Shown piece by piece: positions 14,758 through 31,522 of a stretch of DNA of 36,783 nt (positions are counted from its first letter, which is position 1; each line of letters opens with the position of its first letter). The translations under genes were made by a program, and so were the position numbers. Below the pieces are notes generated by a model. The model ran no database searches. It saw only the letters and a list, made by a program, of their open reading frames with translations, and was not told the DNA's origin. The stretch is taken from NCBI GenBank assembly GCA_021323755.1, contig JAJPKJ010000018.1:1-36783 (forward strand). The letters run 5' to 3'. This stretch comes from Chitinophagales bacterium. Lineage in GTDB: Bacteria; Bacteroidota; Bacteroidia; Chitinophagales; Chitinophagaceae.

Positions 14758-17700
14758 TCAGGAAGGCAATTCAAAGATAAATTGACTTCCTTCTCCTTCT
14801 TTTGTGTTTACTTTAATTTCGCCACCATGGGTCTTAATGATATCATAGCTCAGGCTGAGTCCCAGACCGGTCCCCTGACCGGTTGGCTTTGTAGTAAAGA
14901 ACGGTTGAAAGATCTTGTCAACAATATTCTGGGGAATGCCATTTCCATTATCCATCACCGTTAGTACGACTTTCCCGTTTATCTTTTTTGTTTGTACGGA
15001 AACCAACGGATCATAACTCACGTCTGATAACTCATTGCTTTTCTTCTTTTCATCAACAGCATAAAACGCATTGTTATAAAGATTGAGTAATACCCTTCCA
15101 ATATCCTGCGGGATCATATTGATGGTACCGATGCTTTTATCAAAATCAGTCTTTAAGGTCACCTTGAATGATTTTTCCTTTGCTCTGAGACCATGATAAG
15201 CCAATCGCAGGTATTCATCAGCCAGCGCATTGATATCTATCGGTTCTTTTACTGCGGTGCTCGACCTTGAATGCTGCAGCATACCTTTTACAATCGCATC
15301 AGCACGCCTTCCGTGAAGATTTATTTTTTCATTGTTTTGAAATATATTTTTCAGTATTTCATCTTGTTCCTCATTTTTTAATTTTGACTTTTGGTTTTTT
15401 AATTCTTCGATGAGTTCATTATTCACTTCGGAAAAATTATTCACAAAGTTCAGTGGGTTTTGAATCTCATGTGCAATGCCCGCTGTAAGTTCTCCGAGTG
15501 AAGCCATTTTTTCTGAATGAATAAGTTGGGACTGAGTGGATTTTAATTCCACCAGCGTTTTTTCCAGATTGTCCCGCTGTTGGGTCAGTTCTTCCTTTTG
15601 CTGCATTACCTGGGTGGTGCGTATTTTTATTTTCTGTTCCAGCATCCTGTTTTCTTTGATCAGCCTTCTGCCGCGCAGGTAAATAAACGCCCATAATGCT
15701 CCTATAAACGCTGCTACATATAACACGTAAGCCCACCAGGTTCGCCACCAGGGTGGCGATATCACAAGGGTGATTTCATCATCTTTTGTCCCCCAGATGC
15801 CATCGCTGTTGGCCGCTTTGACATGAAACGTGTAGGTGCCGGGGGCCAGGTTGTTATAAGTGACTGTACGCTCGGATCCTGCTTGCACCCAGTCTTTGTC
15901 GTAACCATCTAATTTGTATGCATACTGATTTAATTCGCTGTACTGGTATTGCAGGCCCGTATAATGAAAGCTTAATTTATTTTCATCATGTTTGAGCTGA
16001 ATGGTATTTTTTTCAATTACCGAAAGTATAGAATCCCTTGGCCGGTCTGCCCTGGTATTTTGAAAACTCAACGTTTCAATATGGATGATTGGCGCAGCAG
16101 TATCAGGAAAGAACTGCTGCGGATCAAATACAATAAATCCATCGTCGCAACCGATCAGGAATTTCCCCTCTCTGGTTTTGTAAAATTTGGTGAACCCGCC
16201 TGCCGAGAAATCCGGCAGACCATTTTTTGTGGAGAGTATACTGAAACTATTGGTTTTGGGGTCCAAGATGGTCAACCTGTCGGATGATAATAGCCATTTT
16301 CTTTTAAACCCATCCTGGTAAATTCCGAGTACATCATTGCTTGGCAGCCCATCCCTGATACTGATGCGGCTGAGGGTCTTGCTTTTCTTGTCTACCATGA
16401 TCACCCCCGCCCCGAGGTGGGTGCCCACCCATAACCGCTCCGCATCTTCATGGATACATATGGTTTCCCCAAAATCCTCGTAAGGATTCGCTAAAGGGGT
16501 AAAATTGTTTTGCCCGGGCAATAAAAAAAACAAGTTGCCGTAGACACCCGCCCAGATGGTTCCGCTGCTATCTTCATGGATACAATTGATCTGCAGATTG
16601 TTTAATGAAGGATAGCGGGTGAACCTACCTGTCTTTGGGTTGTAACTGCAGATGCCCGACTCATTTGTACCGATCCAGATTCTCCCAAGATGATCTTCAA
16701 AGACATAACGCACGATTTTGCCACATACCGAATTGGAGTCCTTCATATCATAGCTGAAATGAACGATCCTATTATGCGCAGGATCATACCTCAGAAGCCC
16801 ATTGCCCAACAAGCTGACCCAGAGATTTCCCTGGTGGTCTGTCGTGATGCCTCTGAAAGGAAGATCATATTTGAAGCGGTGCTTAAAATCGTTTACAATT
16901 TTCACCGCCGCAAATGAATCTGCGCTCGGAAACCAATGGTAAAGCCCTCTATCACTGGCGAGCCAAAAACTGCTATCAGTCCCCTGGGCAAAGCATTCAA
17001 TTTTACCCAGGTTATATTTATTGTCAATATCATTGGTCACCTGGTAGCGGCTAAATTTTGACCGGTTACGGTTAAGCCAATGTACGCCGAAACCCCTCAT
17101 CCCCACCCAAAGGCTCCCATCCTTACTGATCAAAAGGTCGTTGATGAGATTGGGAAAAATAGAAATGGGTAGACGGTCAGGAGCATTTTTATTGCTTAGG
17201 CTATGGATGAATTTCTTTGTGCTCTTATTGAAGAAATACAGATCAGTGGATGTTTTATACCAGATGTTTCCTTCCTTATCCGCGATCAGTCCGGGCAAGG
17301 GGTCACCACCAGTTTCAAAAAAAACAAAACTGTCTTTTTTGTCTGCCGGCTCATAATTGATGAAATGACTGGAAGCGTTGTCAAATTCGCAAAGACCTGC
17401 AGGCGAGCCAACCCAGAGATTGCCCATGCTATCTTTTTGAAATGCTGTAAATTTTTCGCCATCAATGCTATTCTTGTCTTTTGCGTCATGTTGAAAAATG
17501 TCAAAACTGTTTTTTGGGATATTGTACCTTACTATCGAAGCGCCCCCTTTTAGAGGGTTTTGATCAAGATAACTGGCCCTGCTGCGAGAAAACATCCAGA
17601 TTTGGTTTTTGTCTCCCGGATCCTCAAACAAGCCCCAAAAAACCTGCTGATCTTTCTGTTGAGCAGTGGGGAGCATTTTGGTGAGTTTACCCGATCGGTA

Positions 17701-18321
17701 TTGATACCGGTACATACCACTGTCCGTTCCTATCCAGGCCTGCCCGTCTTTTTGGACGAGGTAGTCTAATATCGTAACACCGGGATACAAGCCCTCGTCG
17801 CTTTCCCTGGTCTTGGTCTGTAAATGTTTTGCTGTTCGGTTCGCAGTTATTATTACATCAATAAAATATTTGTTGCTCTGTGCATTATATGAAATAAGCC
17901 AAATATTATTAAGTGTGTCAGATTTGAGGTAAAATACACTGTTCCCAGAGATCATCGGCATATCACCGCCATAATACGCGAAACGTGTAAAGCTGTCGGC
18001 AGCGCGATCGTAGGTAAAAAGACCGTTGCCGTCTGTGCCGATCCATAACCTGCCTTTGGCATCCTGGTGAATGGTATTGACTTGAGAGGGAAGTTTTCCC
18101 GGCATATTCAAACCATACGCTTTGGTGCTGTAACCATCAAAGCGTACCAGACCACTTTGCGTCCCGATCCAGATATAGCCTTCCTTATCTTGCAGCATGG
18201 CTATTTCCGTATTTTCCGGCAAACCATTCTTGATCGTCAGATGATTGAAATGAAATTCCCTGAACTGGGCGCCGCAATGCAGGGACAGTAATAAAAGAAG
18301 CAGAAAATATATTTTTTTCAT
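14758..18321 (-). CDS. Propeller-sensor histidine kinase (Reg_prop, Y_Y_Y, HisKA, HATPase)
   Basis: About 1187 residues from the ATG at 18321 (MKKIYFLLLLLLSLHCGAQF, an exported leader). The first 700 or so residues are two-component regulator propeller units with the motif D..G.IWIGT..GL. (examples: GYIWIGTQSGLVRFDGY, GRLWIGTDGNGLFTYD, GRIWIGTNESGICSYNP). A Y_Y_Y domain follows (YAYKLDGYDKDW, APGTYTFHVKAANSDG), then a membrane helix (AYVLYVAAFIGALWAFIYL), a coiled coil and the kinase core with His951 (AHEIQNPLNF) and GTGLGLSLSYDII. Unlike classical Bacteroidota hybrid sensors it has no receiver or AraC domain. It starts 10 nt after the SusD stop, so it is probably in the SusC/SusD operon and may sense the same ligand. 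Confidence 0.9.
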   Translation of the reverse strand: MKKIYFLLLLLLSLHCGAQFREFHFNHLTIKNGLPENTEIAMLQDKEGYIWIGTQSGLVRFDGYSTKAYGLNMPGKLPSQVNTIHQDAKGRLWIGTDGNGLFTYDRAADSFTRFAYYGGDMPMISGNSVFYLKSDTLNNIWLISYNAQSNKYFIDVIITANRTAKHLQTKTRESDEGLYPGVTILDYLVQKDGQAWIGTDSGMYRYQYRSGKLTKMLPTAQQKDQQVFWGLFEDPGDKNQIWMFSRSRASYLDQNPLKGGASIVRYNIPKNSFDIFQHDAKDKNSIDGEKFTAFQKDSMGNLWVGSPAGLCEFDNASSHFINYEPADKKDSFVFFETGGDPLPGLIADKEGNIWYKTSTDLYFFNKSTKKFIHSLSNKNAPDRLPISIFPNLINDLLISKDGSLWVGMRGFGVHWLNRNRSKFSRYQVTNDIDNKYNLGKIECFAQGTDSSFWLASDRGLYHWFPSADSFAAVKIVNDFKHRFKYDLPFRGITTDHQGNLWVSLLGNGLLRYDPAHNRIVHFSYDMKDSNSVCGKIVRYVFEDHLGRIWIGTNESGICSYNPKTGRFTRYPSLNNLQINCIHEDSSGTIWAGVYGNLFFLLPGQNNFTPLANPYEDFGETICIHEDAERLWVGTHLGAGVIMVDKKSKTLSRISIRDGLPSNDVLGIYQDGFKRKWLLSSDRLTILDPKTNSFSILSTKNGLPDFSAGGFTKFYKTREGKFLIGCDDGFIVFDPQQFFPDTAAPIIHIETLSFQNTRADRPRDSILSVIEKNTIQLKHDENKLSFHYTGLQYQYSELNQYAYKLDGYDKDWVQAGSERTVTYNNLAPGTYTFHVKAANSDGIWGTKDDEITLVISPPWWRTWWAYVLYVAAFIGALWAFIYLRGRRLIKENRMLEQKIKIRTTQVMQQKEELTQQRDNLEKTLVELKSTQSQLIHSEKMASLGELTAGIAHEIQNPLNFVNNFSEVNNELIEELKNQKSKLKNEEQDEILKNIFQNNEKINLHGRRADAIVKGMLQHSRSSTAVKEPIDINALADEYLRLAYHGLRAKEKSFKVTLKTDFDKSIGTINMIPQDIGRVLLNLYNNAFYAVDEKKKSNELSDVSYDPLVSVQTKKINGKVVLTVMDNGNGIPQNIVDKIFQPFFTTKPTGQGTGLGLSLSYDIIKTHGGEIKVNTKEGEGSQFIFELPS

Positions 18322-18331
18322 CCTTTCAAAA

Positions 18332-19750
18332 TTAATAGCCTGTATTTTGTTCTGACGCAATGCTGGGATTGGCTTCTATTTCCGTCAGCGGTATAGGTGC
18401 TATCCTCCGGTAATCAGCATAAGGAATGACCAGATTTATATTGCCTGGACCGGCAGGTAGAGCAGCTGGGTTTGCCCCACGGGCAACAGGCAATTTAAGC
18501 CTGTTCAGGTCGCTCAAACGGTCGCCCTCAAATGCGAGCTCCTTTCTTCTTTCCTGCACAATGTCACTGAGCAGATCCTTGCCTGTACTATTATAGACAA
18601 AGCTGGGGTCACGCTCCGCCATCAGCGCATTGAGATATTGTCTCGCGTCTGCCTCATTGCCAGGCAGTGATGCCTCCGCTGCGATAAGGTATACTTCAGA
18701 GAGCCTGATCACCTTATAATTATCAGGATCTGCATTCAGCGCATTTGGAAATTTATTATTGAGATAAACAGAAGCCCCGCCGGGTGTAATGTAGGGAACA
18801 AAAAGGGTCCTCCTTATATCTGTAGCGCTATACAGATCATATAACTGGGAAGAAACGAAGAAATCCTGGAGCCCGTTTATATAGACACCCCCAATGCTTA
18901 CAGATCCATTATTATTCAGGGGGTCTGCATCTACTTCAAACATGACTTCTGTCTGATCACTTTGAGGAGCAGGATTTGCCCAAAAAGCATTAAAGTCTGC
19001 AGGTGCAACCAGCGAGAACCCGCTATGATTGATCACATCGAGAGCTGCGATTTTTGCATCTTGTTTATCCCCTTCATATAAATAGACCCTCGCCATCAAT
19101 CCTTCTATCGCGTATTTGCTTAAATGCACAGAATTGAAATAATCGGGGGCGTTTCTAAGAGCGGCTTTTAGATCATTCAGGATCTGGCCGTAAACTTCTT
19201 TAACAGCGCTTCGGGCAGGCAAGAGGTAAGGATTATAGGTCAAAACAAGGGGAACGCCGGGTGCTGTTGAATCATCGGTATAAGGTCTTGCATAAATATT
19301 CGCCAACTTAAAATACAGCAGCGCCCTGATAGCATATGCCTGCGCTTTGATCGTGTCAGCCGCTGGGGTGCTCACCGTTGCATTGATGATCTCGTTGGCA
19401 TTTAATATTCCGGTGTAAGCGGCAGCCCACATCTCTAATGCCACTCCGTCTGCAGCACTTACGGAATAAGTATATTGAGCGATAAATAAATTGTGATTTT
19501 GCATTTGCACATAACAATTGTCCGCCTGCAGGTCACCCAGTATGGTAAAATCCAGGCCAAATAGGGTCGTAGATCTTAATGAAGCATATGCTCCGTTCAA
19601 TGCACTCTGTAGTTCATCCACCGTATTCAGAGCCTCGCTTAGCGGTATAGAATCGCTGGGTGTTTGCACCGTGAAATTTTTTGAACAGCCGAGCATTAGC
19701 ATGAATAACCCGGGGACGATGAACAGCAGCTGTCTGATCAATTTTTTCAT
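18332..19750 (-). CDS. SusD/RagB-like substrate-binding lipoprotein
   Basis: This 472-residue lipoprotein has a leader ending LMLGC (Cys22), giving a lipid anchor at the outer face of the outer membrane. The body has the SusD pattern: a TPR-like helical core with AYASLRSTTLFGL, YAIRALLYFKLANIYARPY and YAIEGLMARVYLYEGDK, and C-terminal YKVIRLSEVYLIAAEA, RRKELAFEGDRLSDLNRL and PIPLTEIEANPSI. SusD-type proteins act as a lid over the SusC barrel and capture the nutrient. The ATG at 19750 follows the SusC stop by a single base, a sign of tight coupling. The ligand is not predictable: no enzyme genes accompany the pair. Confidence 0.93.
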   Translation of the reverse strand: MKKLIRQLLFIVPGLFMLMLGCSKNFTVQTPSDSIPLSEALNTVDELQSALNGAYASLRSTTLFGLDFTILGDLQADNCYVQMQNHNLFIAQYTYSVSAADGVALEMWAAAYTGILNANEIINATVSTPAADTIKAQAYAIRALLYFKLANIYARPYTDDSTAPGVPLVLTYNPYLLPARSAVKEVYGQILNDLKAALRNAPDYFNSVHLSKYAIEGLMARVYLYEGDKQDAKIAALDVINHSGFSLVAPADFNAFWANPAPQSDQTEVMFEVDADPLNNNGSVSIGGVYINGLQDFFVSSQLYDLYSATDIRRTLFVPYITPGGASVYLNNKFPNALNADPDNYKVIRLSEVYLIAAEASLPGNEADARQYLNALMAERDPSFVYNSTGKDLLSDIVQERRKELAFEGDRLSDLNRLKLPVARGANPAALPAGPGNINLVIPYADYRRIAPIPLTEIEANPSIASEQNTGY

Positions 19751-19751
19751 A

Positions 19752-22700
19752 TTAAAATCCAATTTTAATTCCTCCCGTTAAAGTTCTGGGGGTGTAAACA
19801 TCAAATCCGTTTATGCTAATCAGACCCTTTTCAGGATCGAAGGGCAAATTCCGGTCTGCAACAAACGTCAATAAATTAGTTCCGCGCACATAAACCACAA
19901 GGTTCAGGATATGCCAACTTTTCAGAACCCGGTTTATGATCGAATAACTCAATTCGAAATTTCTAAGCCTTGCATAATCACCCTTATAGAGGTAACGGGT
20001 GGACATTTTGAAGGAGTTATTGTTCCCGCCATAAATGATCTGGGGAATACTGGTCTTGTCGCCAGGTTTCTGCCAGGCGGATAATTCATCGGTTGACTGG
20101 TTTTCAAAGCCCAGGTACGCCCCTTCGGTACTTTTATATTTACCCCAATAATCATAGATATAATTTCCAAGATTGTAATATATCTGTATCTGCAGGGAAA
20201 TCCCCTTATAGGTGAACGAATTGGTGATAGCACCAAAAATTTTCGGAGAAGCGGACTTGCCGGTTAATGCATACTGGGCCTGGTTATAATCACCAGTTGT
20301 TTTGGAATGGGTGCCATCAGTGTACCAGAGCGGCGTACCATCTGCCGGGTTTGCACCGATCCACTCGGGCAGATAGAACTCCTGGAAATCATGACCTATC
20401 GAAGCGTTGAATATAATGTCCGGGATCGGGTTGCCAAGGTATAATTGAGTAACCCTGTTCTTATTATAGGAAAAATTAAAATTGATATCCCAAGTTAAAC
20501 TACTGTTCATAACAGGCTTGCCCCCCAATGTAAGTTCTACCCCCTTATTGGATATCGCTCCCGCATTCCTGTTTTGCGTAGATACCCCTGAAGTTAAAGA
20601 CAGGGGCACAGCAATAAGGAGACCTGATGTGGTACGCTCATAATATTCGATCGTTCCGTACAGGCGGTTTTTGAATAATCCAAGGTCTACCCCCAGGTTG
20701 AATATGGCATTCTTCTCCCAGGTAAGGTCGGGATTGCCGATATTGGTGAGGGCGCTGCCGGGGTTTCCGGTATAATTGAATCCGTAACCAAATGTTGCCA
20801 GGGCGGTATAATTGCCGATGGACTGATTGCCATTCTGTCCATAAGAGCCCCTTAATTTTAATAGATTGACAATCCTGCTGTCCTTTAAGAAATATTCTTC
20901 ATTGATATTCCATGACAGTCCCGCTGAATAAAAATTTCCCCATTTATGGTCTGCTCCAAAGCGTGACGAGGCATCACGGCGATAACTCCCGCTGAGTATA
21001 TAACGCTCCTTATAGTTCAGATCTGCAACAGAAAATAATGAACTGGTTGTATTATCATTGATGATTGAGTTAGCAAGGAGCGGCATCGCAGCGGTGGCAA
21101 GCCATTGCAGAGCAAGAGTTGGCGGGAAGGACTGACCGGCAGCCTGTAGCTGGTATACCTTCTGCTGGTAGGCCTCATATCCCGCCTTGAGGTCAAAGTA
21201 AAAGTCTCTATCCTTGCTTAACCATTTACGGTAGTCCGCAAAATTGCTCCATGTCCAGTCAAATATTCTTTGATAGGAACTCTGCGCGTACCCAAAAGGA
21301 TAACCCGTACCATATAAGGGATTATTGTATTGATCCTCGCTGATATCAAAATATTCGGCGCTATACCGGCTGGTCAATTCCAGGTTACTCAATATCCTGT
21401 ATTCGCCCGACAAATTTCCCCTGATAACTGTTTGTTTGGAATTGTATTTGTCCCAGGCGGCGATGATAACCGGGTTATACGCGGCAGTGCCCCCACCTGC
21501 GGGGAATTCACCCTGTGGGTCATTATATCTAAAAGAACCGTCGGCGTTATAAGGCGAATACCAGGGAAGCAAAAAGGACTGCGCGAGTACCGGGTTATCT
21601 GAAGCCCCCACATGGTTTGGTGTATTCTGGTTACTGGTTCCGCCTCTAAGACCTGCATTAAAAGTGAATTGCTCATTCGGTTTATGCGTAACCGATATGC
21701 TGCCGTTATAGCGTTGAAACCCTGATCCAATGGTATTGCCTAACTGATTAAACAACCCTCCTGATGCATAGAACTGCGTTTTCTCATCTCCACCACTCAG
21801 GCTCAGGTTATATTGTGCCTGTCTGCCCGCCCTGGTAACAACTTTGAGCCAGTCGGTATTTGTTTTTGTGTAGTTGGGATCGATACCCAGGCCATTTACC
21901 GGATTGCTGATCAGCGCATCAGCACTGGCATCATCTGTTGCCAGTCCTGCATTGATGACCCCCTCGCGGAGCAGGGTTTGGCTTTGAATACTGTTTACCG
22001 GTTTGTTCCTGGGATGAAATGCCAAGGTATTGCTCCCATCTTCGGCAGTAAAGGCAAAAGTGGTTCTGCCGCCCTTTCCTTTTTTTGTGGTAACCAATAT
22101 AACGCCGTTCGCAGCACGAGAACCATAGACCGATGCGGTAGCAGCATCTTTTAAAACGGTGATGGATTCAATGTCATCCGGGTTCAAAGAACTTAGTGCG
22201 TTAGCGGTAGTGGTCTGGATGGTAGGTTCACCGGTAGTGGCGATTGCTCCATCGATCACCCATAAGGGGCTTGCATCGGCCGTGATCGATCCTATACCAC
22301 GTATACGTATATCCGTAATTGCGCCCGGAGCCCCAGATTGTGAAGTGGACTGCAGACCTGCCACCGCTCCCTGCAATGCCTTATCCACTGAAGTGAAGGG
22401 TTTATTTTCCACATCACCACTCTTGACAATCGCAAGAGATCCTGTAAGATTCGTTTTTTTGAGTTGTCCGTAAGCGACTACCAGCACTTCAGAAAGGTTT
22501 CCGGCTAATGACTGCAGGGTGATGGACAAGTTATCAGCAATGCGAACCTCCCTTGTCATAAAATTGACGGATGAAATGATCAGGGTATCTGCTGTACTTG
22601 GCACAGCGAGCGAATAACTGCCGTCTGCGCTTGAAACTGTCCCTATTTTCGAGCCCTTGACCATGATGGATGCCCCGGAAATACCAATGTTCTTTTCACC

Positions 22701-22787
22701 CATGACTTTGCCCGTGATCATGCGCTTTTGCGAATAGGCATGTGTGACCCATAAGAAAAAGAATATAAAGAATATGATATTTCTCAT
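19752..22787 (-). CDS. SusC/RagA-like TonB-dependent outer-membrane transporter
   Basis: This 1011-residue transporter has a signal peptide ending in AYSQ and a carboxypeptidase-D-regulatory-like domain (about residues 22-100; KVMGEKNIGISGASIMVKG). The plug domain follows (ALQGAVAGLQSTSQSGAPGA, IRIRGIGS, SVYGSRAANGVILVTTKKGK), then a 22-strand-type barrel ending in TLTGGIKIGF. It imports a ligand delivered by SusD using TonB energy. No STN signalling domain is present, so control by an anti-sigma factor is unlikely; the LuxR-type regulator gene 81 nt upstream is the likelier controller. The length is normal for the family. Confidence 0.95.
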   Translation of the reverse strand: MRNIIFFIFFFLWVTHAYSQKRMITGKVMGEKNIGISGASIMVKGSKIGTVSSADGSYSLAVPSTADTLIISSVNFMTREVRIADNLSITLQSLAGNLSEVLVVAYGQLKKTNLTGSLAIVKSGDVENKPFTSVDKALQGAVAGLQSTSQSGAPGAITDIRIRGIGSITADASPLWVIDGAIATTGEPTIQTTTANALSSLNPDDIESITVLKDAATASVYGSRAANGVILVTTKKGKGGRTTFAFTAEDGSNTLAFHPRNKPVNSIQSQTLLREGVINAGLATDDASADALISNPVNGLGIDPNYTKTNTDWLKVVTRAGRQAQYNLSLSGGDEKTQFYASGGLFNQLGNTIGSGFQRYNGSISVTHKPNEQFTFNAGLRGGTSNQNTPNHVGASDNPVLAQSFLLPWYSPYNADGSFRYNDPQGEFPAGGGTAAYNPVIIAAWDKYNSKQTVIRGNLSGEYRILSNLELTSRYSAEYFDISEDQYNNPLYGTGYPFGYAQSSYQRIFDWTWSNFADYRKWLSKDRDFYFDLKAGYEAYQQKVYQLQAAGQSFPPTLALQWLATAAMPLLANSIINDNTTSSLFSVADLNYKERYILSGSYRRDASSRFGADHKWGNFYSAGLSWNINEEYFLKDSRIVNLLKLRGSYGQNGNQSIGNYTALATFGYGFNYTGNPGSALTNIGNPDLTWEKNAIFNLGVDLGLFKNRLYGTIEYYERTTSGLLIAVPLSLTSGVSTQNRNAGAISNKGVELTLGGKPVMNSSLTWDINFNFSYNKNRVTQLYLGNPIPDIIFNASIGHDFQEFYLPEWIGANPADGTPLWYTDGTHSKTTGDYNQAQYALTGKSASPKIFGAITNSFTYKGISLQIQIYYNLGNYIYDYWGKYKSTEGAYLGFENQSTDELSAWQKPGDKTSIPQIIYGGNNNSFKMSTRYLYKGDYARLRNFELSYSIINRVLKSWHILNLVVYVRGTNLLTFVADRNLPFDPEKGLISINGFDVYTPRTLTGGIKIGF

Positions 22788-23509: not shown

Positions 23510-26500
23510 TCAGTCATTTTTAAATTCAAGTTCAATCGTTGTGCCTTTGCCTGGGATGGATTCAACGTTAAAAAAAGCTTTCATCCCTTCTGCCCGCTGC
23601 TGCATATTGAGCAGCCCGTTTCCTGGTCTTACCGAACTCAAGTCAAAACCGTTGCCATCATCGCGTATCGTCATCTTTAGGTTATTATCCCTGTTCCAGA
23701 TCATTACAAATGCATTCGCTGCGCCGGAATACTTGGCGACATTGTTCACCGCTTCTTTAAAGACCAGGTAAAAATCTCTTCGCATGTCCATCTTTAGTTT
23801 TGACTGCAAGAGATTTCTGTCGAAATCGAAATGAAAAGCAATGTCTTTTGCAGCGAGGATCTCCGAACCAAATGTCCGCATTCGTTTGATGATATTTTCA
23901 AAACTGTCATTTTTCGGATTTATCGCCCAGACCATATCATTCACTGATTCGATCATATTGCGCGAGCTGATCCCGATCTTTTCAAGCAGTGAACTCGATT
24001 GCGGAGAATGGTCTTTTATCTGTTGATTGACCAGTTCACTCATAATAGAAATGCTGCTTAGTGTTGCTCCAAGATCATCGTGCAGGTCACTGGCTATTTT
24101 GTTTCGTATGCGAAGGATCTCGCGAAATTTCTGCATGCGGTAATGATAAACCGAATACAAGATTATGCCAAGAACAATCAAACATAGCAATCTGAACCAC
24201 CATGTCTGCCAATATGGAGGTCTGATGATGAGTTTAACGGTAGCTCCCTGCTCATTCCAGAGACCATCGTTATTGCTCGCTTTTACCATGAATGTATAAG
24301 TCCCTGCATTAAGATTGGTGTAATTGGCAAAACGTTTGTCCGAATGTGTATAGATCCAATCCTTATCAAATCCTTGCAGCATATAAGCATACTGATTTTT
24401 TTCAGGATGAATGTAGCTCAGTGCCGAGAAAGTAAATGAAAATGCGTTTTGACGGTAAGAAAGTTCTATCACTTTTGCTTCATCCGGAAAAATAGGCAAG
24501 ATGCCAGTAGAGTCCCCTGGTAAAATTGATTTGTTGAATATACTGAAATCTGTGATCGCAACAGGCGGTATGTATGGGTTGTCCTTTAGATCTTCGGGGT
24601 CAAAACCAACAAGACCGGCGCTGCCCGCGAAATATAAAATTCCATCATCGCTTTTTACGCTGGCATTGAACCCAAATTCGTCGCCTGGCAACCCATCGCT
24701 CATGTTGTAATTGCGGCAAACCGGTTTTTTAATTTCAGGGGATGGGGGAGTGAACTTGCAGATACCTTTATTGCTGCTCAGCCAAAGGTTCCCAAGCCCA
24801 TCACTAAGTATTCCCCTTATCGAATTATCCGGCAAGCCATCCTTTACCGTGAAAGCAATGAACTGCTGGCTTTTCTTATCAAAAAGGCTGAGACCTGCAT
24901 TCGTACCGATCCAGACCTTGCCCTTATTATCGTCAAAAAAATAATTGAGCGTATTATTATTGATGGAATTTGGATTGTTCTCATCATGCCTGAAAACCTT
25001 GATTTCGCCCGTTATCGTATTAAACAAAGTCAACCCTCCCTCGCTTCCGGCGATCCACAAAACCGATTCAGGGTCAAAATATAGGTCAGCTATCCCATCG
25101 GTACTCAGCTGGTTGGTATCCCGAAAAATCTTTTCAAACCCGGAGAATTTTCTTGTTTTCAGGTTATAGCATTTCAATCCGTGGTTGGTGCCGATCCATA
25201 GTCTCTTATTGCCGTCTTCGACAATACAATTGCAGGCATTGCCTGAGTTCGGGAACTGGTTGGAGGCGATATGAGCACTGGTGAACTTTTTTGTTTTCAG
25301 GTCAAAGCTGTGCAAGGCTTCAGCATAACCTATCATCCAGAAATTTCCGTCTGAAGCTTCAACTGTACCGTGGCTGACGTTCTCAAAGCCCAATGAGTCG
25401 TTGGGCAAAACAATATTGTGCGATATGAATTTTCCAGCCACAGGGTCAAATTCCTGCAGCCCCGCTCCCCGCGTTGTCATATAGATCTTACCCGTGCTGT
25501 TCTTATACAAAGAAGTTGGACGATGCGTTATATAGTCCTTATCCCAGTTTTGATATATGAAAAATTTCGCCGGTGCCAGGTAACAATTGTTCAGCCCTGC
25601 CCCCCCCGTGCCGATCCACAATACACCACCCGCATCTTCAAAAAGATTTTCGATCTCGTTTGTGCCCAATGAGTGTATATCATTTACGTCGGACTTCCAT
25701 GTCCTGAAATTGTCTGTGGAGGGCTGGTAAATGCTTAAACCCCCAAAGGTAGTGCCAGCCCATATCCGGTTATAGCTGTCCACGAGCAATACGCGTACCA
25801 TGTCTGAACCAAGCGAGCTGGGGTCGCTGGCCGAATGCCGGTAAGTTTTAAAGTTCCCGGTAGCCGGGTCATAGCGGCAGATCCCGCTGTTCCATAAACT
25901 GATCCAGATCTTTCCTGCTTGATCTTCGACCAGGCTGGTAACGGCTTTGTTCAATCCCGCAAGATCTTTACCTGGAAGGATAAGTCGTTTTAATTTCCGA
26001 TTTGTGGGATCATATACATTTATCCCATCCGAGGTCCCGATCCACAACAGTCCATTATGATCGGTCATCATACAGCGAACGCTTTGGCTGTTTAAAGAAT
26101 CGGGATGGATAATTTCAGAAATATTGACAAATCTATTTGAATCCTTTTCATAATAACATAATCCGGCATCTCCTGTGCCAACCCATAGCCTCCCCTGTTT
26201 ATCGGTCTTCAAACAAGTCACATTGTTGGAAGGAAGTGAATATTTGCTTGCTGTATCATGGCTCCAGTTGGTGAACCTGCCCGTGTGTAAATCGTATTTG
26301 CTTAATCCATCTCCTCCAGCCCATATATTGCCTTCTTTGTCTTCGCTCAGTGATTTCACAAAGTCCGATGCGAGTAGATTCTTATTGGATTGATCTGCCG
26401 CGAAACTGGTAAAGGTGTAACCATCATATTTTATCAGACCGTTTAAAGTGCCAAACCAGATATATCCCTTACTGTCCTGCAATATGGATTCAAAAACGGT

Positions 26501-26677
26501 CTGCGATAACCCATGATCTGCGCTGAAATGATTGAACTGGATATTTCCCGGTATTTGTTGTCCCACACAAAAAAAAGGAACCAAAACGGTAAGGATAATA
26601 TTGGACTGTTTTAAATACAACAGTTCGCTAAAATATTTTTTAATAAAGCAGAGAATTTTCAACAGCTCAATTTTCAA
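23510..26677 (-). CDS. Propeller-sensor histidine kinase with HisKA_3 core
   Basis: About 1055 residues. Repeated propeller units (GYIWFGTLNGLIKYDGYTF, GRLWVGTGDAGLCYYEKD, GLLWIGTSDGINVYDP) fill the first 750 or so residues. A Y_Y_Y domain (YAYMLQGFDKDW, NAGTYTFMVKASNNDG), one membrane helix (LLCLIVLGIILYSVYHY), then HisKA_3 with His866 in SDLHDDLGATLSS and an ATPase domain (DDGNGFD, GNGLLNMQQRAEG) follow. The periplasmic propeller is the presumed ligand sensor. No ATG occurs in frame before the propeller. The first usable start is a TTG at 26677, and the secretion core (NIILTVLVPFFCVGQQ) begins around residue 25, so a later TTG is also possible. It is divergent from the cysteine-rich gene. 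Confidence 0.9.
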   Translation of the reverse strand: MKIELLKILCFIKKYFSELLYLKQSNIILTVLVPFFCVGQQIPGNIQFNHFSADHGLSQTVFESILQDSKGYIWFGTLNGLIKYDGYTFTSFAADQSNKNLLASDFVKSLSEDKEGNIWAGGDGLSKYDLHTGRFTNWSHDTASKYSLPSNNVTCLKTDKQGRLWVGTGDAGLCYYEKDSNRFVNISEIIHPDSLNSQSVRCMMTDHNGLLWIGTSDGINVYDPTNRKLKRLILPGKDLAGLNKAVTSLVEDQAGKIWISLWNSGICRYDPATGNFKTYRHSASDPSSLGSDMVRVLLVDSYNRIWAGTTFGGLSIYQPSTDNFRTWKSDVNDIHSLGTNEIENLFEDAGGVLWIGTGGAGLNNCYLAPAKFFIYQNWDKDYITHRPTSLYKNSTGKIYMTTRGAGLQEFDPVAGKFISHNIVLPNDSLGFENVSHGTVEASDGNFWMIGYAEALHSFDLKTKKFTSAHIASNQFPNSGNACNCIVEDGNKRLWIGTNHGLKCYNLKTRKFSGFEKIFRDTNQLSTDGIADLYFDPESVLWIAGSEGGLTLFNTITGEIKVFRHDENNPNSINNNTLNYFFDDNKGKVWIGTNAGLSLFDKKSQQFIAFTVKDGLPDNSIRGILSDGLGNLWLSSNKGICKFTPPSPEIKKPVCRNYNMSDGLPGDEFGFNASVKSDDGILYFAGSAGLVGFDPEDLKDNPYIPPVAITDFSIFNKSILPGDSTGILPIFPDEAKVIELSYRQNAFSFTFSALSYIHPEKNQYAYMLQGFDKDWIYTHSDKRFANYTNLNAGTYTFMVKASNNDGLWNEQGATVKLIIRPPYWQTWWFRLLCLIVLGIILYSVYHYRMQKFREILRIRNKIASDLHDDLGATLSSISIMSELVNQQIKDHSPQSSSLLEKIGISSRNMIESVNDMVWAINPKNDSFENIIKRMRTFGSEILAAKDIAFHFDFDRNLLQSKLKMDMRRDFYLVFKEAVNNVAKYSGAANAFVMIWNRDNNLKMTIRDDGNGFDLSSVRPGNGLLNMQQRAEGMKAFFNVESIPGKGTTIELEFKND

Positions 26678-26708
26678 ATAAAGTTAACTATTAGAAGCTA
26701 AGAAAGGT

Positions 26709-26728
26709 ACCTGCATAAATATGCAGGT
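26709..26728. promoter_or_regulatory. Candidate operator: near-perfect palindrome in divergent promoter region
   Basis: ACCTGCATA (26709-26717), two As, then TATGCAGGT (26720-26728) give perfect 9-base arms. A third half-site core, TATGCAG, lies at 26771-26777 in the same orientation as the second arm. It lies between the propeller kinase (minus) and the cysteine-rich gene (plus), a place where a dimeric regulator could control both. About one such palindrome is expected by chance in a window this long, so position is the main argument. Confidence 0.4.
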
Positions 26729-26845
26729 GGTTAGCTATAATCGCTGATCAAACTCTCTTGGCAGCATGTTTATGCAGTTGATGGATCTGTTTGTAAAGTG
26801 GACTTTTATGTTTCAGAATCTCCTACAAACCAAAACCAAGGCAAA

Positions 26846-27412
26846 ATGAAACATAAAAAATTAAAAAAGCTTTGCGCATTCTTTATCACCCTGATGCTTT
26901 TTTCTTGCTCTATTCTATTTGCAAAGGCACAAAAAACTTCAGCATATTTATGCAAATGCGGTGCACGACAATATGGTTGCTCACCCACTAATTCAGGATG
27001 TGTTGCTGCCTGCGCCTCAAGGTGCCGGATCACCGATTCAGTGGCAGAAAAATCTTTAAATGATAGTCTCTTCGCCATATCTGCCGATACAGCCTTTACG
27101 CCTAAAATTAATATTGCACCTGGAAATGATCCTTCAACACTTTTTTACCCAACAGAAAATGCCGCGGGCTATAGCTGCAATTGTTTTATTCGAGGTTATG
27201 GTTGTCCGCGGTTTGATACCAAATGCGTTGGAATTTGCGGTGCAAAATGCGGAAGGCTCAGTGACAAAGAAAAAAAAACTTCAATTACTCTTGACCAGGA
27301 CAACAATTCTTCTCCGGTTTTTGAAAATGAAAGTCCCTTTATAAAACTGAATGATAATCCCCTGAACTATCCTTTGATAAAATGGAATTGGAATTTGCCA
27401 TCAGAACTATAA
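26846..27412 (+). CDS. Secreted protein with two identical-spacing six-cysteine motifs
   Basis: This 188-residue protein has a signal peptide (FITLMLFSCSILFAKA, probable cleavage before Gln29). I start it at the ATG at 26846; an upstream in-frame ATG at 26798 would put 16 polar residues before the leader. The mature part has two modules with the pattern C-x-C-x6-C-x6-C-x3-C-x3-C: Cys36, 38, 45, 52, 56, 60 and Cys111, 113, 120, 127, 131, 135. Each cysteine in the second module is exactly 75 residues after its partner, and Y.C.C, YGC and the final .C are also shared. The linker and the tail are polar and Asn/Asp-rich. The motifs could be disulfide knots or metal sites. I do not recognise the family. 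Confidence 0.75.
   Translation: MKHKKLKKLCAFFITLMLFSCSILFAKAQKTSAYLCKCGARQYGCSPTNSGCVAACASRCRITDSVAEKSLNDSLFAISADTAFTPKINIAPGNDPSTLFYPTENAAGYSCNCFIRGYGCPRFDTKCVGICGAKCGRLSDKEKKTSITLDQDNNSSPVFENESPFIKLNDNPLNYPLIKWNWNLPSEL
26951..27025 (+). repeat. Six-cysteine module 1
   Basis: Codons for residues 36-60 of the cysteine-rich protein: cysteines at 36, 38, 45, 52, 56 and 60, with YGC in the middle. It matches the module at 27176-27250 in cysteine spacing. Confidence 0.8.
27176..27250 (+). repeat. Six-cysteine module 2
   Basis: Codons for residues 111-135: cysteines at 111, 113, 120, 127, 131 and 135. The residues between cysteines differ from module 1 at most positions, so the duplication is old or the spacing is under selection. 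Confidence 0.8.
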
Positions 27413-27475
27413 AGGCATCTTGTTTTTATCACCAGAGTCTACAAAATTATTTGTTCAATTAAAAAACTAACATGT

Positions 27476-29020
27476 ATGAAAACCTTACTCCTCAAAATTT
27501 TGATGTTGACGTTCATCGCATATCTCTTCGACGCGTCAGCTAAAGCTCAGTTACCAAATCCGCAATTAAAAATTAAGGATTTCAAATTCAAAAATAATCC
27601 ATTGATGCGCATCAAAGGGGCGCAAGTAAACCCGGGACAAAACTTTGGAATAAAGATCAATGCTTTCTGGGAAGATATATATGCTCCGCACACTTATAAC
27701 AGCCATATTACGCAGATAAAAGTACCAACCACAAACGCAGTATGGGCAAAAGTAGATTATGATTCTTCAGATTACGATGCAAACAGTTTTTTGCGTAGTG
27801 CAGACGGCGGCAGGACCTGGCGTCTTGACTCAGTCGATGCGCCAGCCGGCTATGGATTAAGCGGTATTTCCCCTGTCGATGCCAACACTTGCTATGCTGC
27901 CATGTATAATGCGTATGCCGGCATAGGCGGGGGCATCTTTAAAACTACAGATGGCGGGGACACTTGGAAACAGATTAAAGCCGGCAGTCTTTTTGGTGAA
28001 AACTCATTCCCTGATATTGTTTATTTTTTTGATGCGCTGCATGGGATAGCCATCGGCGATGATGACGGCACCGATATTTCAAGGCTAGAGATCTATACAA
28101 CCGGTGATGCCGGCAGAACATGGCAGCGTGTACCTGATAAGAATATTCCGCCAACTGCAGGTTACGCTTTCAGCTCGAACTTCAATTCCTACGCAGTTTT
28201 TCAGAATAGATTTTGGTTTACTGCAGGTGATAGCTATGGCAATAATTATTTTTATCGTTCCGATGATCTTGGGCAGCACTGGCAGCAATTCCCATATAAT
28301 TTGGCCACGGTCATCTCAGGTTTTGCGTTTGCCGACAACCAAAATGGTCTTGGTGTCTCCTTTGATTTTGGCGTTGGACCTCATGAAGTAGAGACACATG
28401 ACGGCGGCAAAACATGGAAAGATAAAAGCTATACCGGCTACCCCATGGGGCTGTCTATTTCCGTCATTCCATCAACTCACACTTTCGTAAGCGTCATTCC
28501 TTATGATGTGACACCGGTTGCCGGATCTTCTTATAGCAATGATTTCGGGGCAAGCTGGAAGCTGATTGATTCGAGCGCAGGCTTCAGACCTTTCTCAGTA
28601 GCATTTCTGGATCCTTTTGATGGATGGGCGGGAAGAGCTGATGCCCAGGATCCCAAAGGCGGCATGTATAGATGGAAATATCAGTTTCCATTGGATAATA
28701 CCCCTGCCCTTGCTTCAGCAGATGGAATACCCCAGACAAAAAGTAATATAACAGGCTTGTCGGTTTATCCCAATCCTTCAAAAAGCATAGTAAACATTTC
28801 ATTCTCGAATCCACAAAATCAGAAAGTTTCAGTTACTGTCTATGAAATGAATGGAAGACTCATTAAAACACTCGCCAGTGAACAAATGCTGGAAGGTTTT
28901 CACCAGCTGTCCTGGAATACAAGAGATGAAAATGGGAACGCAATAAATACCGGTGTCTACTTTTTAAGAATTGATACCTGGAATCATGCGGAAATAAGAA
29001 AATTACTAATTGAAAAATAA
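27476..29020 (+). CDS. Secreted Asp-box beta-propeller protein with T9SS sorting domain
   Basis: This 514-residue protein has a signal peptide ending in AKAQ. Six Asp-box/BNR-type turns are visible at residues about 108-115 (SADGGRTW), 157-164 (TTDGGDTW), 209-216 (TGDAGRTW), 262-269 (SDDLGQHW), 308-314 (HDGGKTW) and 354-361 (SNDFGASW), as in YCF48/BNR-like propellers. Residues 427-514 are a type A sorting domain (LSVYPNPSKSIVNISFS, VTVYEMNGRLIKTL, NTGVYFLRI). The protein should be exported by the type IX system and attached or released at the cell surface. Sialidase catalytic residues cannot be confirmed, so I do not call an enzyme. It lies 63 nt after the cysteine-rich gene and 13 nt before the next gene. 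Confidence 0.85.
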   Translation: MKTLLLKILMLTFIAYLFDASAKAQLPNPQLKIKDFKFKNNPLMRIKGAQVNPGQNFGIKINAFWEDIYAPHTYNSHITQIKVPTTNAVWAKVDYDSSDYDANSFLRSADGGRTWRLDSVDAPAGYGLSGISPVDANTCYAAMYNAYAGIGGGIFKTTDGGDTWKQIKAGSLFGENSFPDIVYFFDALHGIAIGDDDGTDISRLEIYTTGDAGRTWQRVPDKNIPPTAGYAFSSNFNSYAVFQNRFWFTAGDSYGNNYFYRSDDLGQHWQQFPYNLATVISGFAFADNQNGLGVSFDFGVGPHEVETHDGGKTWKDKSYTGYPMGLSISVIPSTHTFVSVIPYDVTPVAGSSYSNDFGASWKLIDSSAGFRPFSVAFLDPFDGWAGRADAQDPKGGMYRWKYQFPLDNTPALASADGIPQTKSNITGLSVYPNPSKSIVNISFSNPQNQKVSVTVYEMNGRLIKTLASEQMLEGFHQLSWNTRDENGNAINTGVYFLRIDTWNHAEIRKLLIEK

Positions 29021-29033
29021 ACAATACAAACCA

Positions 29034-29717
29034 ATGAAAAAAAATCAATTCAAAACCGCAGTGATCATTTCGATCCTTTCTCAGCTGATATTTGTTGGTG
29101 CTGTTCGTTCACAGAATGACATCAATGATACGACAAATGGCAAAGCAGATTATGCTGACAGATTTCCTTGTATTCCATACCTGGCACCACCTTCAAACCT
29201 GGTTGCAGATTCAATTACCAGCAATTCGGCTCAGTTGCATGCAAGCGGCTCAGGTCTTATAACAATATACTATAAACTACTTGCCGCACCAACCTGGACA
29301 TTTGCGCCTGGTGGAATAGCAAGTTCACTTCTTCCAAATACAGAATACGAGTTTTATGCAACAGCTTACAAATATGTCTGTAATAAATACTTGACGAGTA
29401 AATCTTCAGCCTTCGCTTATTTCACAACACTTCATGCTGCAAGCCATTCTTCTATCAACACCATTTTTTTTCCAAATCCGAGTCACGGTCTGGGAATGCT
29501 TTCCTTTACCCTTCCCCAACCTGGCTATGTTTTAATCAAATTATTTGATAAAACCGGAAGGACAATATCTACCATTAACAAAGGGAATATGCCAGAAGGC
29601 GAGCACCATATGTCAATAGTGCTGGATAACGGCTCCACGCCCGCTGGCTTATATTTTGTGAGCATAGAAACTTCATTCGGACTAACGGAAACAAAAAAAA
29701 TCATATTGATAAAATAG
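29034..29717 (+). CDS. Secreted FnIII-like protein with T9SS sorting domain
   Basis: This 227-residue protein starts at the ATG at 29034, 13 nt after the propeller gene. It has a signal peptide (AVIISILSQLIFVGAVRSQ). One fibronectin III-like domain follows (PPSNLVADSITSNSAQL to LPNTEYEFYATAYKYVC), then a C-terminal sorting domain (IFFPNPSHGLGMLSFTL, IKLFDKTGRTISTI, PAGLYFVSIET, ending KKIILIK). It is probably a surface or released binding protein with no enzymatic motif. Tight spacing argues for one transcript with the gene before it. The ligand is unknown. Confidence 0.8.
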   Translation: MKKNQFKTAVIISILSQLIFVGAVRSQNDINDTTNGKADYADRFPCIPYLAPPSNLVADSITSNSAQLHASGSGLITIYYKLLAAPTWTFAPGGIASSLLPNTEYEFYATAYKYVCNKYLTSKSSAFAYFTTLHAASHSSINTIFFPNPSHGLGMLSFTLPQPGYVLIKLFDKTGRTISTINKGNMPEGEHHMSIVLDNGSTPAGLYFVSIETSFGLTETKKIILIK

Positions 29718-29786
29718 AAAAATTATGTATTGAAAAACAAAAGATTCATCAATAACATCCTAGGCGGCTTATTCAAATGAATTCAT

Positions 29787-30836
29787 ATGAAAAAGAACTG
29801 GTCAACAATTATTTTCTTGTCAGGTATAATATTTTGCTCATGTCAGAAAGGGAATAATTCCCCTCCTTCCAACACTCCGGTGGATGTTTATGTAGCGGGA
29901 TACGAAGCAAACAACGCAAACAATAATGTGGCCAAGTATTGGAAAAATGGTGCCCCCTATGTCCTTAGCGATGGCTTATATCCTGCCGTTGCGACATCCG
30001 TTTATATTTCAGGAAATGATGTATATATATCCGGGTATGAATCCAATGCCGCCGGCAACAATGTCGCAGGGTATTGGGAAAATGGCACCAAGGTCATTCT
30101 TGGTGATGGCACAATAAATACAACGGCCTGGTCAATCGTTGTTTCAAACAATGATGTTTATGTAGCAGGAGCTTCTTATGATAGCAGCGTTGGTATATCA
30201 AAAGCAATTTATTGGAAAAACGGTACACCCTTTTACCTTGATTCAGCAAGTAATTACGGAGGCGCTTATCGAATAGCGGTTTCGGGAACTGATGTGTATG
30301 TAGCCGGAAATGATGATTATGGCAATGCAGTATATTGGAAAAATGGTAACATAATGATTCTTCAGGGTAATGCTTTGGTAAGATCCATGGTCATTTCAGG
30401 AAATGATGTATATATAACAGGAATTGTTCTCCCCCCGACTGGCGTTCGTGCAAAGGTGAAAGCAAGGATCTGGATAAATGGCTCTGTTCCGACATATCTG
30501 TCGGATAATGCAAATGCAACCTATGGAGAAGGCATTGCCATTTCCGGGAATGATATATATGTCGCTGGCTTTAGTGTTGATGGAACCGGTAACCATCCTG
30601 TATACTGGAAGAATGATTCGATTAATTATTTGCCTTCAAATGGTACTGGTCCGGGCGCAATAGGCTTGGGGGCGGCAGGTGCAATCTCAGCTTTTGGAAA
30701 TGATATATATATAGCAGGAGAAGACGGAAGTGCCACCAATAAAATTGCTGCCTATTGGAAAAACGGCAAACTGGTGGATCTGACCGACGGCTCTCACAAT
30801 GCGGAAAGCCTCGCAATATTCATTTCAAAACAATAG
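29787..30836 (+). CDS. Lipoprotein with seven-repeat beta-propeller
   Basis: This 349-residue protein has a leader FLSGIIFCSCQKG; Cys19 (or Cys17) is the likely lipid-modified residue. The mature part is seven tandem units of about 38-50 residues, each opening NDVYVAG or a close variant (Asp at 33, 78, 123, 169, 207, 256 and 306) and usually containing YWKNG about 15-22 residues later. Seven units fit one closed seven-bladed propeller. No catalytic signature is visible. It lies 69 nt after the FnIII gene and completes the run of four exported proteins on this strand. A binding or scaffold role is the reasonable guess. Confidence 0.8.
   Translation: MKKNWSTIIFLSGIIFCSCQKGNNSPPSNTPVDVYVAGYEANNANNNVAKYWKNGAPYVLSDGLYPAVATSVYISGNDVYISGYESNAAGNNVAGYWENGTKVILGDGTINTTAWSIVVSNNDVYVAGASYDSSVGISKAIYWKNGTPFYLDSASNYGGAYRIAVSGTDVYVAGNDDYGNAVYWKNGNIMILQGNALVRSMVISGNDVYITGIVLPPTGVRAKVKARIWINGSVPTYLSDNANATYGEGIAISGNDIYVAGFSVDGTGNHPVYWKNDSINYLPSNGTGPGAIGLGAAGAISAFGNDIYIAGEDGSATNKIAAYWKNGKLVDLTDGSHNAESLAIFISKQ
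29883..30833 (+). repeat. Seven propeller-blade repeats
   Basis: In-gene tandem array of seven units built on (N/T)D(V/I)Y(V/I)(A/S/T)G ... YW(K/E)NG ... L.D. Even at the DNA level the starts resemble each other (for example GGAAATGATGTATATATA at two units). Confidence 0.8.
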
Positions 30837-31153
30837 ACTAAACGGGGAAACGCCAATAATAAAATTTGGCTCCGGAACGCTATCGAGACTACCTGGCACT
30901 AATCCATTTTCGGTCATGAAATAGTCTTCGGTTGTGCATATACGTTAGTATAACAGAATCTATTGTGTGTGCTGTTCTTTTCCTTCACCCATAAATGAAA
31001 TTTTTTAATACTGTGGAATTTGCGTATATTCAAAAAGTCAATTCCTGATTTCTGGAAAATCTCTTCTTAGCATTGTTATCCTGACATATAACTTTACCTG
31101 GAATCTTTCAGACTTTTTAGCAGATCAGCTTTTTTATTTTTAAAAATTCGCAC
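30837..31153. other. Intergenic region, nothing recognised
   Basis: About 317 bases between the propeller lipoprotein and the stand-alone receiver. I see no coding frame beyond 17 codons, no clear terminator after 30836 and no exact TAnnTTTG box. The last 60 bases are T-rich and should contain the receiver promoter. Confidence 0.5.
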
Positions 31154-31522
31154 ATGCAAAATATTTTGATCGCAGATGATTCTGCCGATCTGCCGGCGAT
31201 CGTCAGGTCCATTTATTCCAGGCGCAATATATTTATCTCCGAAGCCACATCCAAAGCGGAATTGCTCTCTTCTCTGTCACGCATGAGACCGGATCTTATC
31301 CTGCTTGACGTTATACTAGACAGCGATGACGGCAGGGTGCTCTGCAAAGAACTAAAGCTTTCCGATGATTATAAGACGATCCCCATCATACTGATATCCG
31401 GCGACCCGGAAAAACTGCTTGATCCCCAGGAAGTTTTTGCCGATGGGATCCTTCAAAAACCTTTCAGGGTTGAATCGGTGCTTTCAAAAATTAAGGAAGT
31501 GATCAATAAATATGCATCTTGA
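31154..31522 (+). CDS. Stand-alone response-regulator receiver domain
   Basis: This 122-residue protein is a single receiver domain: Asp8/Asp9 (LIADDS), phospho-acceptor Asp52 (ILLDVILDSDDG), Ser82 (LISGD) and Lys102 (LQKPF). There is no output domain, as in CheY-like or phosphorelay intermediates. No kinase gene is adjacent. The two kinases at 13068-18321 have no receiver partner of their own in the window, so it is a conceivable but unproven acceptor for one of them. Flanking gaps of 317 and 85 nt make it a single-gene unit. Confidence 0.88.
   Translation: MQNILIADDSADLPAIVRSIYSRRNIFISEATSKAELLSSLSRMRPDLILLDVILDSDDGRVLCKELKLSDDYKTIPIILISGDPEKLLDPQEVFADGILQKPFRVESVLSKIKEVINKYAS

Follow-up and report, generated by a model that had tools for sequence, protein, structure and literature searches.

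Descriptions of small disulfide-stabilised domains are plentiful for eukaryotes but sparse for bacteria, and the small exported products of Bacteroidota include NVEALA and other small cysteine-containing peptides. Bacterial defensins are a described bacterial case of such domains: the accessible part of the source (PMC11561630) presents the cis-defensins, of the CS-alpha-beta type, as small exported cysteine-rich cationic units with a CxxxC helix and a CxC strand, and gives their cysteine order as C-x(2,18)-C-x3-C-x(2,12)-C-x(4,17)-C-x-C. A second relevant case is that of SprF and PorG, Bacteroidota envelope proteins in which, according to the accessible text of PMC12635249, a cysteine pair in the periplasmic tail bonds GldK, CxC being the reactive motif of SprF; the SprF-GldK disulfides demonstrate that such bonds do form in the periplasm of Bacteroidota.

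The protein considered here is encoded in a window (the whole analyzed stretch of DNA, 36,783 nucleotides) of a Chitinophagales genome (GCA_021323755.1, contig JAJPKJ010000018.1), and the features of the locus are listed in Table 1. Like the cis-defensins, it contains small, exported, cysteine-rich and cationic units with a predicted CxxxC helix and CxC strand, but its predicted hairpin precedes the helix, and two modules are joined in one longer protein. The cis-defensin expression, as worded in the accessible text of PMC11561630, is absent from it. The GXC gamma-core of the cis-defensins occurs only in module 2, as GICGAKC at residue 129, within the stretch that aligns to the predicted helix of module 1. 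The CxC pair is shared with the tails of SprF and PorG, but these, in the portion of PMC12635249 at hand, carry a pair that bonds GldK and have no six-cysteine module. The spacing C-x3-C of Nigellin-1.1 (2nb2) is also common to our protein, the match being non-significant (E = 1.1 over 15 residues). With NVEALA-type peptides the protein has no NCBIfam or Pfam match in common.

Table 1. Features of the six-cysteine gene and its surroundings (window coordinates)
Feature	Position	Strand	Properties	Basis
Propeller sensor kinase	23510..26677	-	divergent; Reg_prop, Y_Y_Y, HisKA_3, HATPase_c	Pfam
Inverted repeat	26709..26728	.	20 bp, 9-bp arms, ACCTGCATA-AA-TATGCAGGT; divergent intergenic stretch	by eye
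Exported protein	26846..27412	+	188 aa, two six-cysteine modules	ORF translation; codon model best of six frames
Probable Sec signal peptide	26846..26929	+	residues 1-28	by eye
Module 1	26951..27025	+	CKCGARQYGCSPTNSGCVAACASRC, net charge +3	
Linker	27026..27175	+	50 residues, net charge -3	
Module 2	27176..27250	+	CNCFIRGYGCPRFDTKCVGICGAKC, net charge +3	
Tail	27251..27409	+	53 residues, net charge -2, without T9SS sorting domain	Pfam scan
BNR-repeat protein	27476..29020	+	next gene downstream; T9SS sorting tail over cut-off	profile scan
Downstream protein	29010-29717		T9SS tail near threshold: 25.9 vs cut-off 27 bits	
Lipoprotein-like protein	29787-30836		349 aa, YWKNG-like repeat units, no Pfam match at E <= 0.001	by eye

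Translation confirmed the open reading frame, its coordinates and both cysteine motifs of the original prediction. The pattern C-x-C-x6-C-x6-C-x3-C-x3-C spans residues 36-60 (cysteines 36, 38, 45, 52, 56 and 60) and 111-135 (cysteines 111, 113, 120, 127, 131 and 135), and two extra cysteines, 10 and 21, lie in the signal region. Trained on 14 ORFs elsewhere in the window, a codon model favours the frame at 26846-27412 over the other five (0.06 bits per codon, compared with -0.12 to -0.72); when cysteine codons are excluded, the frame scores 0.24, and four held-out genes score 0.17-0.24. Read by eye, the N-terminus MKHKKLKKLCAFFITLMLFSCSILFAKA followed by QK is a probable Sec signal, likely cut between AKA and QK; a lipobox at Cys21 is a possible alternative, but it would have F at position -2. 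The mature part defined by this cut (160 residues) contains twelve cysteines and neither histidine nor methionine. A module charge equal to or greater than that observed is reached by 2019 of 100000 shuffles, and a KEKK run follows module 2.

As a DNA pattern, the motif occurs twice in the window, compared with a mean of 0.00 and a maximum of 0 in 100 dinucleotide shuffles. The chance that two six-cysteine clusters of 25 residues have identical interior spacing is 1 in 8855, and when twelve cysteines were placed at random in the 160 residues of the mature part, identical spacing was obtained in none of 200000 trials. The modules have a few other residues in common (R, YG, V and a tyrosine two positions ahead of the first cysteine), which makes domain duplication more likely than chance. 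Further, the BLOSUM62 score of the 19 non-cysteine module positions is matched by only 359 of 100000 shuffles, so that the modules are probably homologous copies arising from an internal duplication; the count of identities taken alone is weak, as 4194 of 100000 shuffles reach four. The exact 75-residue register noted originally is true but does not constitute separate evidence, because it is the same fact as the identical spacing. Most intervening residues do differ between the modules (15 of the 19 non-cysteine positions, the four identical ones being R, Y, G and V).

The original prediction recognized no named family in the protein, and this holds as far as tested, with no significant match to a known domain profile in Pfam, NCBIfam or PHROGs (in Pfam and PHROGs the best E values are 0.1 to 0.2, and the 188-residue protein has no NCBIfam match). 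The Pfam search of the whole protein up to E = 10 yielded only two unrelated virus models (E of 0.16 and 0.22) and did not detect the T9SS C-terminal sorting domain PF18962, and the best match of the modules (E = 0.13) is not significant. The same is true of the best PHROGs match of the whole protein (E = 0.1) and of the best sequence matches in PDB (E = 0.54 for the whole protein and 0.12 for the modules). Plasmid records contained no match at E <= 1, and among phage records a single phage, represented by two entries, was matched at E = 0.5. No description of the framework was found among the papers listed from the literature covered, which excluded supplements and most subscription journals.

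Since no relatives were available, the AlphaFold2 run modelled module 1 from an alignment whose sole other row was module 2. The program predicts strands at 6-10 and 13-17, a helix at 22-31 and a strand at 33-36, with a mean pLDDT of 77, three of the five models of this run averaging 48-52. When the whole mature protein was modelled as a single sequence (mean pLDDT 41), module 1 retained the same elements, residues 11-30 falling in blocks with pLDDT of 70 and 74, and module 2 appeared as two strands without the helix (block means 37-42). The structure prediction proposed originally as a check gave a compact hairpin-helix for module 1 and, for module 2 in the whole protein, only low-confidence strands. 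A Foldseek search of PDB with the 41-residue model, a weak test, returned three matches, the best with E = 7.1 and TM 0.23. In the module 1 model, the CxC cysteines would share one side of a strand and those of CxxxCxxxC one side of the helix, and three hairpin-helix staples are then the simple reading.

The choice left by the original prediction, a disulfide-rich mini-domain or a metal-binding cage, is partly supported by the compact hairpin and helix predicted for module 1, and of its two options the disulfide one fits better. We favour it over both a metal cage and a defensin-like precursor; relative to metal binding, it is preferred because of the even number of cysteines, their likely positions on strand and helix faces, and the absence of histidine and methionine from the mature part. 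We suggest, giving this reading about an even chance, that the protein is a Sec-exported tandem of disulfide-stapled mini-domains that serves as a binding or effector unit outside the inner membrane. It would consist of two copies of a domain of about 30 residues, with polar, slightly acidic and probably flexible segments between. Each copy would comprise a beta-hairpin, with CxC on strand 1 and a third cysteine where strand 2 ends, and a following helix whose three cysteines (i, i+4, i+8) point to the same side, the helix presumably being stapled to the hairpin by three disulfides. The stapled knobs would each be cationic, and the pair would most likely form a stable binding or effector unit, in which two tethered knobs could bind an anionic or surface partner with avidity. 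Co-production with the T9SS-exported products of the downstream genes is possible. The disulfide reading is mildly weakened by a search for VKOR, which was not found in the source genome, the control being matched in three of 14 named genomes. An extension of this reading, in which the hairpin-then-helix module with its C-x-C-x6-C-x6-C-x3-C-x3-C order is an undescribed framework of one lineage, an exported tandem effector or binder and a defensin-like counterpart with reordered elements, seems to us rather doubtful.

Two cationic cysteine-rich modules with acidic segments between them could also belong to the precursor of two defensin-like disulfide peptides, from which the acidic linker and tail are removed and whose modules act singly on competitors. 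The predicted fold and presumed pairing, which would attach the helix to a hairpin in cis-defensin fashion though in another order, are consistent with this possibility. On the other hand, the protein does not match the bacterial cis-defensin cysteine expression quoted above from the accessible part of PMC11561630, module 1 lacks the GXC core, the charge of a module is only +3, and the nine neighbouring proteins scanned include no immunity or peptide-export families. We consider such a precursor unlikely, and continue to prefer the stapled tandem.

Another possibility is that the gene is young or fast-evolving and specific to its lineage, with a product that has no settled role, the duplication of the module representing recent drift. 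Part of the evidence for it comes from the searches for relatives. The whole protein found only itself, weak rejected matches aside, in 58 relatives and 344 family genomes. The module profile did likewise, apart from weak matches, in genomes drawn from the genus (33), family (294), order (396), class (390) and phylum (395); these draws overlap, include the source genome in their totals, and each cover a part of their group. Besides the source genome, weak matches were observed in six of the 58, five of the 33 and 63 of the 294 genomes at an E threshold of 0.1, in four of the 396, one of the 395 and two of the 344 at 0.002, and in none of the 390 at 0.0005. For them 44 loci outside the source genome were returned, the matches of the family draw at E <= 0.1 (63 of 294) being covered where a locus was returned. 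Twenty-six of the 44 were read, 24 as translations of both strands and two (L087 and L092) as ORF lists, and none keeps the six cysteines in their spacing. Judged by eye, L087 looks like an AraC-type helix-turn-helix protein, and the others look like adhesin-like repeat proteins, reverse strands of genes or frames containing stops. The nearest, L090, has five cysteines and the last three spacings in a 37-residue frame that lies within a 552-residue one.

Scans of contig collections, by protein and by cysteine pattern, led to a similar picture. Of 78 stretches matched by a protein-based scan of genome_contigs (84,980 species), none codes for a relative; this collection may omit near relatives of the source genome, and a pattern scan requires the exact spacing. 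The pattern CxC-x4-[FY]GC-x6-C-x3-C-x3-C matched 72 stretches of genome_contigs, of which none was accepted: 27 carry an in-frame stop inside the module, and 44 of the 45 open ones are overlapped by a longer open frame in another frame. The remaining open stretch, L026, is a cysteine- and arginine-rich frame (197 vs 176 residues), and the best-looking one, L028 (CPCLEARYGCMGNSRQCSRTCFIIC), was dropped since it overlaps a 452-residue frame. In viral_contigs, where YGC was fixed, nine stretches were found. One of them, L134 (544-738, minus strand, in the 406-kb viral contig IMGVR_UViG_3300044797_000098), is a 64-residue ORF whose start resembles a signal peptide and which has the complete six-cysteine spacing; a search of viral_contigs for its relatives finds it alone. 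Because it contains two additional cysteines within the module and otherwise shows no clear likeness to the window protein, it is treated as convergent, although this is unproven. A looser spacing search of frames of at least 50 residues in 142 loci, including all 44 weak ones, returned only the gene itself and loci of the pattern scans, among them L139, which is L134 again.

With no accepted relatives in the samples from genus to phylum and in the pattern scans, the gene is an orphan within the collections searched, which is not proof of uniqueness. A recent origin would agree with this, and also with the similarity of the modules in DNA, as they share 56% of their nucleotides, and their four common non-cysteine residues have identical codons, three of the six cysteine codons being different. 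However, the twelve cysteines are exactly spaced although 15 of 19 other positions have changed, and this suggests selection since the duplication. A young gene without a settled role thus appears quite unlikely to us.

We find it still less probable that the cysteines bind metal clusters, the protein being a thiolate cage in the envelope for Cu(I) or Zn or a metallothionein-like sink. The density of cysteines, twelve in 160 residues, and the failure to find VKOR in the source genome speak for such a cage, and CxC and CxxxC are capable of binding soft metals; but thiols outside the cytoplasm tend to oxidise, the mature part offers no histidine or methionine, and neither matches to metal families of Pfam or NCBIfam nor metal genes among the nine neighbouring proteins scanned were observed. 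Finally, it is very improbable that the CxC pairs link the protein through disulfides to a component of the envelope or the T9SS, in the manner of SprF and PorG with GldK: the shared CxC motif of SprF (PMC12635249, accessible text) and the adjoining T9SS cargo genes are compatible with this, but the SprF and PorG pairs are described there in periplasmic tails, and here CxC belongs to an even six-cysteine set in which internal pairing is expected.

The stapled tandem, if true, would be a new scaffold, a duplicated domain whose cysteine order is unmatched in the libraries searched, and an example of a module that keeps its cysteines while most other positions drift. At present the six-cysteine protein is real and unusual, and a curiosity more than a discovery.

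The genomic context is as originally described: the gene lies back to back with that of a divergent propeller kinase and heads a run of genes for probable exported proteins, as seen from domain scans and, for the lipoprotein-like product, by eye. The downstream BNR gene (27476-29020) has no matches in 32 other genomes of the genus at E <= 1e-30, and hence the run may be lineage-specific. A gene for a LuxR-type regulator lies behind the divergent kinase. Related regulator genes, each next to a kinase gene recognised by eye, are present in three other genomes (G007, G010 and G020), and no such six-cysteine gene occurs in the fetched stretches, the G020 contig ending about 700 bases past the kinase; the regulator matches in G001 and a second one in G020 were left out of this comparison. 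Likewise, the fetched stretch around a second regulator-kinase pair of the source genome has no such gene.

The -7 element of Bacteroidota promoters has the consensus TAnnTTTG, which is absent from 26601-26860 on both strands, and 26500-31200 contains nine sigma-70-like sites, compared with 13.8 in shuffles. The inverted repeat upstream of the gene has no second genomic copy with up to two mismatches, one further copy having three, and may be a candidate operator or an RNA hairpin. On the far side of the first kinase's regulator, a SusC/SusD pair adjoins a second propeller sensor kinase of 1200 residues (14758-22787, minus strand).
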